A DNA stretch of 64,000 nucleotides from Clostridia bacterium (GTDB lineage: Bacteria; Bacillota; DULZ01), in assembly GCA_012840125.1 (NCBI GenBank), contig DULZ01000061.1, forward strand, positions 1-64,000, given 5' to 3'. The position numbers and the translations under genes are program-made. A model generated the notes under the pieces. That model saw only the letters and a program-made list of their open reading frames with translations. It made no database searches and was not told where the DNA came from. Every line of letters begins with the position of its first letter. The first letter of the stretch is position 1. This document shows positions 23,245 to 28,721 of this stretch, piece after piece.

Positions 23245-24402
23245 ATGGCACCTGTCAAAGTAGCGATCCTTACCCGCCCCGTGCAGGGCGGTATGCAAAA
23301 ACATGTCTTGCAATTACTGCGGCATCTTGATCGTGACCGGTTTGACATCCATTGCATCGGTCCCTCTGGGTTGGCCCAAGCCGTTCATGGCTTTGCCATA
23401 CCTCATTTGCATCTTGATATAAATGAGAGATTGCATCCCGTGGGCAAGGCGCAAGAAATTGGCAGGTTGGTTTCCTACCTGCAGGAACATCAAATTCAAA
23501 TCCTTCATTGCCATGGAGTACAGGCCAGTCTGGTGGGCCGGCTGGCGGCCAGGTTGTCTCGCACGCCGGTAGTCATCTGCACCTATCACAATCTTATTTA
23601 TGACCGTCCCTACCCAGCCTGGCAAAAACACTTGATAGCCATGAGCAATCGCCTGTTAAATTCCAACACCTACCAATTCATCGCGGTCTCCCAAGCCCTA
23701 AAACGGCAGTTAGTCGAACAGGAACGCATCTCACCGGATCAGATTGAAGTAATATACAACGGATTGGAGACAGAAGCCTTTCTGGATGAGAGACTCTTAA
23801 ATCGATCCCTGTCTACGACCGGAAAACAGGTCATTGGTATGATGGGCCGCCTGGTAGAGGAAAAAGGTGCTGATTTATTCCTTCAATGCGCTTGCTTCAT
23901 CAAAGAAAGTAAACCGGAAGCCGAGTTCTGGGTGGCCGGGGACGGACCCGAGCGGGGTAGGCTGGAGCAAAGAGCGGCGGAACTAGGTCTGCTGCCCAAC
24001 ATGAAGTTTTTCGGCATGCATGAGCGTCCAGTCCAACTCCTTGATGCTCTGGATGTGATAGTGGTCCCTTCCCGTACCGAAGGTTTTTCTATAGTCACGT
24101 TGGAAGCCATGGCCAGAGCAAAACCGGTGGTGGCTTTCCGAGTAGGGGCACTGCCGGAACTCATCATTCCCGGTCACACAGGCATACTGATTCCTCCATA
24201 CGACACTTATCGCTTGTCACAAGCAGTGATACGCTTGCTTGATGAGCCTGCCTATGCTGCATATTTAGGATTCAATGGCTACTTGAGAGCCAAACAAAAC
24301 TTTACCGTCCAAAACATGATTGCGCAAACGGAAGCTGTTTACCAAAAGGCACTGGCAAACTTGGAGAAGGGGAGGACGGATTCCCTTGCGGCTACAACTT
24401 AA
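23245..24402 (+). CDS. Glycosyltransferase, GT4 family
   Basis: This is a 385-residue GT-B glycosyltransferase. The N-terminal domain has TRPVQGGMQKHVLQLLRHL (acceptor side, with the Gly-rich loop), and the C-terminal domain has IGMMGRLVEEKGAD, VAGDGPERGRLE and the donor-binding EX7E-type motif in PSRTEGFSIVTLEAMA. The donor and acceptor cannot be told. It overlaps by 17 bases a gene for a large membrane protein with a phosphatase-like domain, so the two probably act on the same cell-surface glycan or lipid. Confidence 0.88.
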   Translation: MAPVKVAILTRPVQGGMQKHVLQLLRHLDRDRFDIHCIGPSGLAQAVHGFAIPHLHLDINERLHPVGKAQEIGRLVSYLQEHQIQILHCHGVQASLVGRLAARLSRTPVVICTYHNLIYDRPYPAWQKHLIAMSNRLLNSNTYQFIAVSQALKRQLVEQERISPDQIEVIYNGLETEAFLDERLLNRSLSTTGKQVIGMMGRLVEEKGADLFLQCACFIKESKPEAEFWVAGDGPERGRLEQRAAELGLLPNMKFFGMHERPVQLLDALDVIVVPSRTEGFSIVTLEAMARAKPVVAFRVGALPELIIPGHTGILIPPYDTYRLSQAVIRLLDEPAYAAYLGFNGYLRAKQNFTVQNMIAQTEAVYQKALANLEKGRTDSLAATT

Positions 24403-26593
24403 GAGAGCATTAGCCCTGGCTATGGTTGCTTGCAGTCTTGTTTGGCATGCTTTCCCGGAGGCGGCCCAAGGCAAACCAGACAAACAAGTGATTTTTGTGA
24501 TGGCTGATTATTTAACTTTAAATGACTTGTTGTCAGAAGAGGCCGTATTCCTGCAGGAAGCAGCTCTCAAGAGTACCGTTGGCCTCATGAATACCAATAC
24601 AGCCCATAGTACCCGCACCCATCCCCACACCCATGCCACGATCAGCGCCGGCAGGCCGGCGGTGGGGGGACCCGGTTATGTGCTGGCTTACCCGGCCCGG
24701 GAAAGGATGGATGGAGAAACAGCAGGATCCCTTTATACCAGATATACGGGTAATACACCTAAAGAAACTGATGTGCTGGTGCTCAATTGGCCCCAGATCC
24801 AGCGCGCCAACGGAAACCTGCGCCCGCCTGCACCATTACCCGGCTTATTGGGGGAGAAACTGAAGGATGCCGGTCTATCCGTAGCGATTTTGGGCAACTC
24901 TGACACTCCGGCTGCGGTCCATCGCCCGGCAGGACTGATTGCCAGCGATCTCGAGGGCATTATACCATCCGGTCAAGTCGGCGGAGACATTACCCGTCCT
25001 GCGAAGGGCTTTCTCCCTTTTCGTACCGACTACCAAGCGCTGTTGGAGCAAACACTGGCGACTTTGGAAACCGCCAGCTTGGTAGTCATCGACACCGGAG
25101 ACCTGTTCCGGCTTGAAAGCACCCGGCATTACGGTTCTGAAGACGTGGTGCTGCGAGACCGGAAGACTATTATCAAAGATATCAATGACTTTTACCATGA
25201 GCTATACCAGAGGGTGAATCCGGAGAACACCCTTTTGATCCTGGCTTCAACCACGCCATCCCCGGCCCAGTTACAGCAAAAGGACTTTCTAGTGCCAATA
25301 ATCATCTCAAACAGCCGGTTAGCACCTGGGCTCGTATACAGCAATACCACCCGCAGGCCCGGCTTGATCACTAATACAGACTTAACAGCCAGTATTCTGG
25401 CCTTTTTGGGCATTGAGCCCACGCCGCAGGTAACCGGCCAACCAGTCTCAGGTGTGTCTTTTGACCGGGGAAACCCCTGGCGTTATCTTGCGGAGATGCA
25501 CGAAGAAATGCTGTTCACTTACCAAAATCGTCCCAACATCATTAAGCCTTATATAGGTCTCCAGATCATAACCATCTTTGGTGCTATTCCCATGTTCTTT
25601 AAGCCACATAAAGCTATTCCTTATTACCGGTACCTGCTGGTTCTCATGGCAGCCGGCCCGGCGGCTCTTTTACTGGTAGAACTGTTCACCCATGAAAACC
25701 TTGTTGTATATAGTATAATATTAGCATTATTGGCTGCCTTACTGGCTTTATTGTGCAACGGCCTGTTTCCCGATAGAAGTATTCGCCCGTTTGTCCTGTT
25801 AAGCATGCTCACGGCAGGGTTAATCATTGCCGATCTTGCTGCCGGTTCGTTCTTGATGAAACAGTCTTTATTGGGCTACGATCCCATTGCCGGGGCACGT
25901 TATTACGGTATTGGCAATGAATACATGGGAGTGTTAGTAGGTTCCTCTTTTATGGGATTTGGTGTATATTTCCATGAACGGAAAGCACCCATCAGTATAC
26001 TCCTTAGCATAGTCTATTTTAGCTTGCTAATCTGGCTTATGTTCGCCGCAGATTTCGGCACCAACCTAGGAGGTACCATCACTTTACTGGTGGCCTGCGG
26101 CTGTTGGTTTTGGCGCTGGCAAAAAGACAATATAAAACAACACTTCGGCTATTCATGTCTTCTGTGCCTGGTCATCTTAGGTTTCGTCATCACTGTCGGT
26201 TTGGGATTCCAGCATGACCGGCCTTCTCACATCGGGAGAACGGTACAATTGGTGCAGCAAGAAGGGCTTCAGGAGCTCTGGTACATCATGCTGCGAAAAC
26301 TGGAAATGAATTTAAAGTTGATTCGCTATACACCTTGGACGAAAGTCTTCCTGGCAGCTTTACTGGCTGTGGGAATCTTGTTGTACAAACCGGCCGGTTT
26401 CATGAAACGATTATTTGACAAACGCCGACCCATCTATGAAGCCTCCATCGCCATACTATTAGGAAGTATGACCGCTTTGGTATGGAACGATTCAGGCATT
26501 GTAGCCGCAGCGACCGCCATGATTTTCTGCGTTTACCCTTTGTTGAGTCTAGCCTTAAGTGACATTGACGGGCAGCGGAGAAAGATAAGCTAA
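24386..26593 (+). CDS. Membrane protein with N-terminal alkaline-phosphatase-like ectodomain; family not recognised
   Basis: I do not recognise this protein. From TTG 24386 (11 bases after GGGGAGG) it has 735 residues. A signal-like helix (about 6-27) is followed by about 350 extracytoplasmic residues with an alkaline phosphatase-like pattern: VIFVMADYLTLNDL, a His/Thr-rich THPHTHATISAGRPA, VVIDTGDLF, LLILASTTPSP and TDLTASILAFLGIEP. From about residue 388 there are about ten hydrophobic helices; conserved-looking loops are ARYYGIGNEYMG, DFGTNLGGT and WNDSGIVAAAT. The order (enzyme domain first, membrane domain last) is the reverse of LtaS- or EptA-type phosphotransferases. It overlaps the GT4 gene. 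A role in surface polymer synthesis or transfer is inference. Confidence 0.7.
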   Translation: MRLQLKRALALAMVACSLVWHAFPEAAQGKPDKQVIFVMADYLTLNDLLSEEAVFLQEAALKSTVGLMNTNTAHSTRTHPHTHATISAGRPAVGGPGYVLAYPARERMDGETAGSLYTRYTGNTPKETDVLVLNWPQIQRANGNLRPPAPLPGLLGEKLKDAGLSVAILGNSDTPAAVHRPAGLIASDLEGIIPSGQVGGDITRPAKGFLPFRTDYQALLEQTLATLETASLVVIDTGDLFRLESTRHYGSEDVVLRDRKTIIKDINDFYHELYQRVNPENTLLILASTTPSPAQLQQKDFLVPIIISNSRLAPGLVYSNTTRRPGLITNTDLTASILAFLGIEPTPQVTGQPVSGVSFDRGNPWRYLAEMHEEMLFTYQNRPNIIKPYIGLQIITIFGAIPMFFKPHKAIPYYRYLLVLMAAGPAALLLVELFTHENLVVYSIILALLAALLALLCNGLFPDRSIRPFVLLSMLTAGLIIADLAAGSFLMKQSLLGYDPIAGARYYGIGNEYMGVLVGSSFMGFGVYFHERKAPISILLSIVYFSLLIWLMFAADFGTNLGGTITLLVACGCWFWRWQKDNIKQHFGYSCLLCLVILGFVITVGLGFQHDRPSHIGRTVQLVQQEGLQELWYIMLRKLEMNLKLIRYTPWTKVFLAALLAVGILLYKPAGFMKRLFDKRRPIYEASIAILLGSMTALVWNDSGIVAAATAMIFCVYPLLSLALSDIDGQRRKIS

Positions 26594-26667: not shown

Positions 26668-27045
26668 TTGAACGCATTGGGCCGCCACATCTTAGCTGAA
26701 ATCTACGGGTGCGATTTCAGTATTCTAAACGACATCAAGAAAGTAGAAGAGATTATGGTCAATGCCGCTTTGGAAGCCGGTGCCGAGGTACGTGAGTTCG
26801 TCTTCCACAAGTTCAGCCCGCAGGGTGTCAGTGGCGTAGTTGTGATTTCCGAATCCCATTTGGCCATCCACACTTGGCCTGAGTTGGGTTACGCGGCTGT
26901 TGATGTGTTTACTTGCGGCGAACGGGTTAATCCGTGGGATGCCTGCAGATTTCTCACTGAACAATTTAAAGCTCAACATGTTGACGCAAGGGAAGTAGAA
27001 CGCGGTGTCATCATACCTCCTCACCGGCAAGCGGTAAATCAATAG
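26668..27045 (+). CDS. speH: S-adenosylmethionine decarboxylase proenzyme
   Basis: SpeH decarboxylates S-adenosylmethionine to supply aminopropyl groups for spermidine. The 125-residue proenzyme self-cleaves to form a pyruvoyl group; the family residues are in place: S63 (cleavage site in [12 protein letters not shown]), H68 and C83 (VFTCGE). I accept the TTG at 26668, 7 bases after AAAGGAGG. Spermidine synthase is not adjacent. The gene has its own promoter and is followed by a long hairpin. Confidence 0.96.
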
Positions 27046-27088
27046 GAGGGATATTTATTTTATTCAATTTAAAAAACAAGCTTTAACG

Positions 27089-27127
27089 TAAGCCTTGCAG
27101 TACTACGGGAGAGTATTGTAAGGCTTA
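27089..27127 (+). repeat. Long inverted repeat between speH and the HepS-like gene
   Basis: TAAGCCTTGCAGTACT (27089-27104) can pair with AGTATTGTAAGGCTTA (27112-27127) over 16 positions, two of them G-U in RNA, with a 7-base loop. It is followed by TATTTATTC rather than a T run, so it is not a typical terminator. It may be an RNA 3'-end or processing structure. Confidence 0.7.
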
Positions 27128-27229
27128 TATTTATTCTCGCATTCCCACACTGCTTAACAGAAGGAATTTAACAGTGAGTCGAGAATAGATCAAAATACTG
27201 CTTGTTAAAGTCAGGAAGGAGCGCTATCC

Positions 27230-27973
27230 TTGGAAACCGTGTTTCCTAAGATTCTGTTACCTTTAAAGAAGGACTTAGAGCAAGTGGAACAAAGGATGCA
27301 CCAAGAAATGAAACTTAAAGCGGGACATATCTCCCAGTTTATTAACCTGCAGCTGCACTGGTGGGACAGGTACCTGCACCCGGCGGTATTGATCCTGTCC
27401 GGTCGCATGTTTGGCTATACCCATCCGAAAATGCTTTACCTGGCCTGTGTGGTACAGTTTATTCACATTGCCACCGGTATCCATTACAGGGAATATGACC
27501 AGCGACCGGGATTACCGGTCTTAATTGGTGACTATTTTTATGCCAAGTTTTTTAGTTACCTCTGTAATGTCGAGGCCCTGGAATGGCTGCCGGAGCTAGC
27601 TCAAGTCATCAACGACGTTCACGATGCCGGGATAAGAGAAACGGAAAACCAAGAATCCCTATCATCAAATGTGGACAGCTATATTAGTTTACTCAAGAAA
27701 CAATCAAGTCTCTTAGGTACATGCAGTACTTTTGGTGTTAAAGCGACGGGAAGCAATACTATCTACGAAACCCCGCTCAAAACTTTTGGGCTTAATCTTG
27801 GTGCAGCTCTAAAACTGGTCAAGCAAAAGCAACACCTGCCTCATGCCAGGCAGCTCTTGTCCGATGCGGAAAAAGAACTTAGCAAACTGCCGGACAAGAC
27901 TGAAAAAACTATTTTATGGGGATTGTTGGACGCTTGTCAAGAGGAATTACACCAGGTTTGTTTAGCGGGTTAG
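27230..27973 (+). CDS. HepS-like subunit of heptaprenyl diphosphate synthase (degenerate polyprenyl synthetase fold)
   Basis: This 247-residue, mostly helical protein resembles component 1 of heptaprenyl diphosphate synthase. The segment QFIHIATGIHYREYDQRPG occupies the place of the first DDXXD region of polyprenyl synthases but lacks the aspartates, and LIGDYFYAKFFSYL matches the GDYF region of HepS. Without metal-binding motifs it should be a non-catalytic partner of HepT, which is encoded 6.5 kb downstream. menG follows after 16 bases, as in the hepS-menG-hepT operon of Bacillus. The start is TTG after AAGGAG. Confidence 0.7.
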   Translation: METVFPKILLPLKKDLEQVEQRMHQEMKLKAGHISQFINLQLHWWDRYLHPAVLILSGRMFGYTHPKMLYLACVVQFIHIATGIHYREYDQRPGLPVLIGDYFYAKFFSYLCNVEALEWLPELAQVINDVHDAGIRETENQESLSSNVDSYISLLKKQSSLLGTCSTFGVKATGSNTIYETPLKTFGLNLGAALKLVKQKQHLPHARQLLSDAEKELSKLPDKTEKTILWGLLDACQEELHQVCLAG

Positions 27974-27989
27974 GAAAAGGAGTTTGTGC

Positions 27990-28721
27990 ATGAAATTACC
28001 AGGTGTATATCAGAGCAAGAACAAGGAAGAATACGTTCACCAGATCTTTTCATCCATTGCTTCAAAATATGACTGGATGAACACCGTCATGACATTCAAC
28101 CGGGACAAGTACTGGCGACGGTTTACCGTAGAACAAGCCAACCTCTCCGAAGGCAGCACGGCCCTCGATGTTTGCTGCGGCACGGGTAAACTGTGTTTAG
28201 AACTGGCGAAAAAAGTCGGGAAGACAGGTAAAGTCATAGGATTGGATTTCTGTGAAAATATGCTGCGGGTGGCGGACAAAAACTTAAGCAAGCACCCGCT
28301 GGGTTCCCAAATCGAACTGGTACACGGAAACGCAATGGATTTGCCTTTTCCCGACAATACCTTTGATTGCGCTACCATCGGTTTTGCCCTCAGGAATGTG
28401 CCAGATATCACTCAGACTTTGCAAGAAATGATGCGGGTAGTAAAGCCGGGCGGGAAAGTGATTTCCCTGGAACTGGCCAAGCCGTCAGCCCCCGTATTTA
28501 AACAGCTATTCTGGCTTTATTTTGAAAAATTCGTGCCCCTCTTGGGCAGGTTTAGGGTTGGCGTTGACGGGCCCTATAGTTATTTGCCTTATTCCGTCAA
28601 GATTTTCCCTCATCAAAAGGAAATCAAGGACCTCTTTACCAACATCGGGTTGAAAGACGCTGCCTATTATGAATTAACAGGGGGCATCGTGGCCGTTCAT
28701 GTAGGCACAAAACCCCAGTAA
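27990..28721 (+). CDS. menG: Demethylmenaquinone methyltransferase (UbiE/MenG family)
   Basis: This SAM-dependent methyltransferase carries out the last step of menaquinone synthesis. Its 243 residues include the family opening IFSSIASKYDWMNTVMTFN, the SAM-binding LDVCCGTGKLCLELA, GNAMDLPFPDNTFDC and GFALRNVPD. I chose ATG 27990, 7 bases after AAAAGGAG. Together with the HepS-like gene, hepT and sdhCAB it points to a respiratory quinone in this organism. Related UbiE enzymes act on other quinones, so the exact substrate is inferred. Confidence 0.9.
   Translation: MKLPGVYQSKNKEEYVHQIFSSIASKYDWMNTVMTFNRDKYWRRFTVEQANLSEGSTALDVCCGTGKLCLELAKKVGKTGKVIGLDFCENMLRVADKNLSKHPLGSQIELVHGNAMDLPFPDNTFDCATIGFALRNVPDITQTLQEMMRVVKPGGKVISLELAKPSAPVFKQLFWLYFEKFVPLLGRFRVGVDGPYSYLPYSVKIFPHQKEIKDLFTNIGLKDAAYYELTGGIVAVHVGTKPQ

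Follow-up and report, generated by a model that had tools for sequence, protein, structure and literature searches.

The window analysed here, a stretch of 64,000 nucleotides from a Clostridia bacterium, carries two overlapping genes, one for a GT4-type glycosyltransferase and one for a membrane protein of 735 residues that is encoded in a single open reading frame starting with TTG. The main features are:

23245 to 24402, + strand: partner gene, GT4-type glycosyltransferase of 385 residues (Pfam Glyco_trans_1_4, 5.5e-35; Glyco_transf_4, 3e-24)
24369 to 24375, + strand: ribosome-binding site GGGGAGG, read from the sequence, 10 bases before the TTG and inside the end of the GT4 gene
24386 to 26593, + strand: 735-residue protein with a helix, a putative pseudo-phosphatase ectodomain and a polytopic membrane domain (open reading frame, relatives, AlphaFold)
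24389 to 24451, + strand: N-terminal signal or anchor helix, residues 2 to 22 (AlphaFold/DSSP)
24476 to 25462, + strand: ectodomain of predicted alkaline phosphatase fold, residues about 31 to 359 (Foldseek probability 1.00; HHalign 96.4% to iPGM)
25475 to 26590, + strand: C-terminal membrane domain, residues 364 to 735, with about 11 crossing helices (AlphaFold of the membrane half alone)

The protein family and its GT4 partner

The reading frame at 24386-26593 is a genuine gene and not a chance frame because relatives, mostly full length, are encoded in 27 of 41 related genomes. The gene is single-copy in its own genome, and a search of GTDB genomes turned up at least 569 candidate stretches coding for relatives; among 200 sampled genomes of the phylum, 145 match the protein at E<=1e-3 and about 129 at E<1e-30, i.e. 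with weak matches set aside. The protein gave no match above cut-off to the Pfam and NCBIfam models searched, in agreement with the sequence-only reading, which had placed it outside the described families, and 22 aligned relatives compared with Pfam gave only faint matches to phosphatase-superfamily models and a few chance matches. A literature search for the family and for the locus tag of its Clostridioides difficile member found nothing relevant. This C. difficile relative (725 residues, L254:9001-11178, 24% identical, annotated 'hypothetical protein') retains nearly all invariant residues of the family and lies beside disA, following radA-disA-PIN/TRAM, with no adjacent GT4 gene; its record is a circular one of 99.5 kb labelled as a plasmid, and the neighbours ctsR, clpC, radA and disA look chromosomal. 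Two records (L015 of genome G017, and genome G134) hold two tandem copies of the family in a single open frame of ~1490 residues, possibly a fused duplication.

The partner carries Glycos_transf_1 and a GT4 N-terminal domain, both above the Pfam cut-off, and the last 17 bases of its gene are shared with the start of the 735-residue frame, an overlap that would allow translational coupling. Of 80 related loci, 50 have a GT4 gene on the same strand no more than 400 bases away (37 upstream, 13 downstream), in line with the conserved pairing for which the sequence-only reading had proposed to look; the remaining 30 have no GT4 gene within this distance, some of them being truncated at contig ends. 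In a tree with other GT4 proteins of the same genomes the partners group together, and the label upstream or downstream switches about three times, not all branches being well supported and the rows L225 and L227 being probably long-branch artefacts of the picking of open reading frames. That the pairing persists through independent changes in gene order argues for a functional link between the two proteins rather than mere synteny. Moreover, at E<=1e-3 the genome that carries the window shows no Wzy_C match, and at E<=1e-15 it has a single GT4 relative, so the pair may be the sole such route in this organism.

Downstream of the gene (26668-28721) follow SpeD, a prenyl-synthase-like gene and MenG/UbiE, and downstream genes of relatives also include UbiD, UbiA and futalosine-pathway-like genes, making a recurrent menaquinone-type neighbourhood. 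The gene between SpeD and MenG (27230-27973), a frequent downstream neighbour of the family, encodes a protein of 247 residues with a polyprenyl synthetase match below cut-off (PF00348, 1.5e-05), possibly a degenerate or accessory, HepS-like prenyl-synthase subunit. A link of the family to menaquinone was considered and rejected: quinone-type neighbours are frequent, but the Thermoanaerobacter and C. difficile relatives sit elsewhere, so that the neighbourhood looks like local synteny. Four loci of Thermoanaerobacter/Thermoanaerobacterium (L081, L086, L091, L071) form a second locus type with no GT4 gene nearby, a TauE-like permease on one side and, on the other, what we take from its sequence to be a gene resembling arginine deiminase.

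Invariant residues and fold of the membrane half

AlphaFold, run on the full protein with an alignment of 77 sequences (pLDDT 92.4, pTM 0.90), predicts an N-terminal helix, an ectodomain of ~330 residues and about 11 membrane helices behind it; a separate prediction of the membrane half gave a pLDDT of 92.4 and a pTM of 0.92. The model thus has the order proposed in the sequence-only reading, ectodomain first and membrane part after, and the many helices that it had put behind the ectodomain, at about 11 crossings instead of about ten. Crossings were counted from helix limits and loop charge by the positive-inside rule. The topology of the membrane half is that of the model only, because two loops (486-510 and 609-650, the latter of ~40 residues and near the C-terminus) carry a positive charge and yet lie outside in it, and the C-terminal tail has almost no net charge.

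Over an alignment of 77 relatives, the most invariant residues of the whole protein are located in the membrane half, at its outer face. In the model topology the invariant polar residues R505, Y507, N511, E512, H615, R637, K638, W651, N701 and D702 face outwards, a placement that is supported by the model and, for most loops, by positive-inside charge. The motifs that contain them are listed here together with DFGTNLGGT:

25892 to 25930, + strand: extracytoplasmic motif GARYYGIGNEYMG (503-515), R505, Y507, G508, G510, N511 and E512 invariant, aligned to the Wzy NPN region
26051 to 26077, + strand: extracytoplasmic motif DFGTNLGGT (556-564), aligned to Wzy SRGG
26225 to 26239, + strand: SHIGR (614-618), H615 being the sole invariant His of the whole protein
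26294 to 26338, + strand: RKLEMNLKLIRYTPW (637-651), R637, K638 and W651 invariant
26486 to 26503, + strand: NDSGIV (701-706), N701, D702 and G704 invariant

Fold searches with the membrane half gave little to name it by: Foldseek against the PDB reached a probability of 0.25 at best, with WaaL, RodA and FtsW absent among the 50 matches listed, a viral fold library gave no match, and the membrane profile met only spurious NDP-kinase matches among the sequences of solved structures. Against Wzy_C proteins HHalign gave a score of 33.8 (probability 14-18%), pairing GARYYGIGN with the Wzy NPN loop and GxNxGG with SRGG; 60 block shuffles reached 24.9 at most, and the unrelated polytopic families SecY, Nuo, UbiA, MurJ and PMT_2 scored 13-19. 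With a larger family alignment the Wzy_C probability went down to 5-8% and the match was not raised. GT-C_A (PMT_2) and MurJ, at control level, were rejected as relatives; the FtsW/RodA score of 27.5 was not counted, as it came from pairing the C-terminal loop with the first FtsW helices, i.e. non-equivalent regions.

The anatomy of the membrane half fits the published description of lipid-diphosphate glycosyltransferases (PMC10920833). In these enzymes conserved residues line the outer face and an outer loop is found close to the C-terminus, O-antigen ligase has an Arg pair together with a His, and in the GT-C1/GT-C2 clans the loop close to the C-terminus is long, extracellular and bears conserved residues (PMC10920833). 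In the model, R505, E512, H615, R637 and K638 are invariant at the outer face, as befits GT-C_B, and an outer loop lies near the C-terminus. Outward invariant Arg, His and acidic residues and such a loop are common to Wzy/WaaL/SEDS and the 735-residue protein, as is the order of motifs, from NPN-like to SRGG-like to a His loop; in contrast, profile and fold matches to Wzy/WaaL/SEDS are not significant, and the large N-terminal ectodomain is a feature of the 735-residue protein. As HHalign probabilities lie at 5-18%, with no Pfam match to Wzy_C (PF04932) or FTSW in 22 members and no Foldseek match among those listed, the resemblance to Wzy/WaaL weakly suggests a relationship and is to be taken as a lead, not as membership.

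DUF5693 (PF18949) is likewise an ectodomain-first membrane protein with a large ectodomain, encoded next to a glycan gene (csaB) in 27 of 41 related genomes; with HHalign probabilities of 1.5% and 8% it was rejected as a homologue. In the own genome (L115, G000:C20) a polysaccharide pyruvyl transferase-like (CsaB) gene comes directly after the DUF5693 gene, and a MurJ-type flippase gene lies ~4 kb beyond.

Alternatively, the protein could be a regulator, flippase or adaptor, whose membrane half would move or sense a lipid, be it the product of GT4 or a different one, while the pseudo-phosphatase head would report on it, a role comparable to that proposed for YejM/LapC with lipopolysaccharide. 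YejM is among the Foldseek matches of the whole model, metal ligands are lost in the family (see below) and the membrane half has no recognised glycosyltransferase fold, all of which would suit such a role. However, the membrane half has its invariant residues in a charged cluster that includes a single invariant His and looks catalytic. Moreover, YejM (PbgA/LapC) resembles the 735-residue protein as a membrane protein with a divergent alkaline-phosphatase-like ectodomain, but its membrane part comes first and has 5 helices, unlike the 735-residue protein in number and arrangement, and it retains catalytic Thr302 and a reported Mg-dependent phosphatase activity (PMC7576196). We consider a regulator, flippase or adaptor rather unlikely, and prefer a transferase function of the membrane half.

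Fold and catalytic positions of the ectodomain

Foldseek returned 26 PDB matches for the ectodomain at E<=0.001, all of probability 1.00 and all from the alkaline phosphatase superfamily, with 2zkt at the top and LtaS (B. subtilis), LtaP, NPP, YejM and sulfatases among them, and HHalign aligned it to phosphoglycerate mutases from related genomes with a probability of 96.4%. On the predicted structure, the ectodomain thus has the alkaline phosphatase superfamily fold that the sequence-only reading had recognised, and the motifs of that reading lie where it had placed them (D41; THPHTHATISAG, 78-89; TDLTASILAFLGIEP, 331-345; ARYYGIGNEYMG, 504-515; DFGTNLGGT, 556-564). A residue map onto iPGM, which rests on the profile alignment and whose iPGM numbers are those of the Bacillus enzyme, equates Asp12 with D41, the nucleophile Ser62 with H79 and Asp444-His445 with T289-T290, and puts His462 near Q298; D403 and H407 fall outside the aligned stretch, and their counterparts D239 and L243 were chosen from the position of the motif. 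The positions concerned are:

24506 to 24508, + strand: D41, remnant of the first metal ligand, Asp in 62 of 77 relatives (iPGM profile map)
24617 to 24652, + strand: THPHTHATISAG loop (78-89), counterpart of iPGM NSEVGHLNIGAG, with the nucleophile position H79, variable in the family
25097 to 25111, + strand: GDxxR motif (238-242), D239 and R242 invariant, L243 in place of the canonical His at D+4
25250 to 25264, + strand: TTPSP (289-293), expected place of the catalytic Asp-His pair (HHalign, family alignment)
25346 to 25363, + strand: TTRRPG (321-326), T322 invariant, R324 87% (family alignment)
25376 to 25399, + strand: TDLTASIL (331-338), counterpart of iPGM DVAPTVL, D332 invariant (HHalign, family alignment)

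Active metalloenzymes of the superfamily are marked by an Asp-His pair and further His ligands of a two-metal site and by a Ser, Thr or Cys nucleophile, and the family lacks this set. The Asp-His motif was found in 0 of 77 aligned relatives, and His makes up at most 31% of any ectodomain column. The nucleophile position holds Pro, Ser, Arg or Glu in relatives, and Ser, Thr or Cys occurs at this position +/-1 in just 48 of the 77. Because the metal site is dismantled and the nucleophile unconserved, the head is probably not a phosphotransferase, the chemistry that the sequence-only reading had implied, and the motifs which it had called alkaline-phosphatase-like are better read as remnants of the fold. 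By contrast, D239, R242, T322 and D332 are frozen in 77/77 relatives and N171, D173 and R180 are kept in 94-96%, and because most of these residues (N171, D173, R180, D239, R242, T322 and R324) lie in the model at core strand ends, the usual place of the active site, the pocket seems to have been re-used and not lost. From these alignments we conclude that the head would be a pseudoenzyme or have a novel chemistry, rather than act as a classical phosphotransferase.

Known proteins parallel parts of this design. iPGM/ApgM (PF01676, alkaline phosphatase superfamily) share the fold, the NSEVGHLNIGAG-type loop and the C-terminal DxAPTxL...MxG block, but are cytoplasmic and catalytic, whereas the head described here is secreted, fused to a membrane domain and devoid of nucleophile, Asp-His pair and metal-binding His. 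LtaS/LtaP and EptA likewise carry an extracytoplasmic domain of this fold on a membrane domain; in these, N-terminal membrane helices precede the catalytic ectodomain and a metal/Thr site is present, whereas the 735-residue protein has the reverse order, with ~11 C-terminal helices and no metal site. Its domain order is paralleled by PIGN-type GPI ethanolamine-phosphate transferases, which have an N-terminal helix, an alkaline-phosphatase-like domain and many C-terminal helices. The active site of these transferases is homologous to that of alkaline phosphatases and they are suggested to be zinc enzymes (PMC9168625); the PIG-N Pfam model matched none of 22 family members, and an intact metal site is lacking in the family.

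The clustering of the invariant and near-invariant residues at the strand ends, together with Asp at position 41 in most relatives, would also be expected if the head had kept an enzymatic function through a remodelled Arg/Asp chemistry, metal-poor or metal-free, on phosphate or sulfate esters. Position 41 is, however, Asn in 12 of 77 relatives and in C. difficile, a conserved His and a conserved nucleophile are both missing, and we know of no member of the superfamily that uses such chemistry; we regard rebuilt catalysis as improbable and favor a binding function of the pocket. A classical metal-dependent phosphotransferase of the LtaS/EptA kind with swapped domain order has the fold in its favor, but in view of the missing Asp-His pair, the lack of a conserved His and the variable nucleophile position it is close to refuted.

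A candidate pathway for a surface glycoconjugate

Because the gene usually adjoins that of a sugar-transferring enzyme, the 735-residue protein probably assembles a sugar polymer of the cell surface or attaches it; the proposal of the sequence-only reading that the pair makes or decorates a surface glycolipid remains plausible. Combining both halves, we tentatively propose, at somewhat short of even confidence, a two-gene system in which the GT4 protein makes a glycolipid, the membrane half ligates or polymerises it outside and the head binds the acceptor: (i) on the cytoplasmic side GT4 would attach a sugar to a lipid carrier, as its family suggests, (ii) another protein would flip the lipid-linked glycan, (iii) the outward cluster R505, N511, E512, H615, R637, K638, N701 and D702 may bind this glycan, (iv) the membrane half would transfer it to an acceptor in the manner of a WaaL/Wzy-like lipid-diphosphate glycosyltransferase, and (v) the remodelled pocket of the head, with its invariant Asp and Arg residues, could hold an anionic acceptor or the growing polymer beside the membrane site.

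The fold of the head and the GT4 partner are recognisable, but no description was found of the combination of parts, of a site dismantled in this way or of the membrane fold, which lacks a match. A more far-reaching reading, which we rate as doubtful, is that the protein and its relatives form a new class of integral-membrane enzymes, glycosyltransferases or ligases, whose fold is outside the solved structures and which have a retired phosphatase as acceptor-binding head and, with a dedicated GT4, make an undescribed surface glycoconjugate across much of the anaerobic Bacillota including C. difficile.

Hundreds of bacterial species retain this protein of ~735 residues, in a family that has no name in the models searched and no function found in the literature, and the outward residues of its membrane half are almost frozen even at 24% identity. 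Here a phosphatase fold has lost its chemistry and is joined to an apparent extracytoplasmic transferase; the family may be a sign of a so far unrecognised surface polymer in anaerobic Bacillota and in C. difficile.
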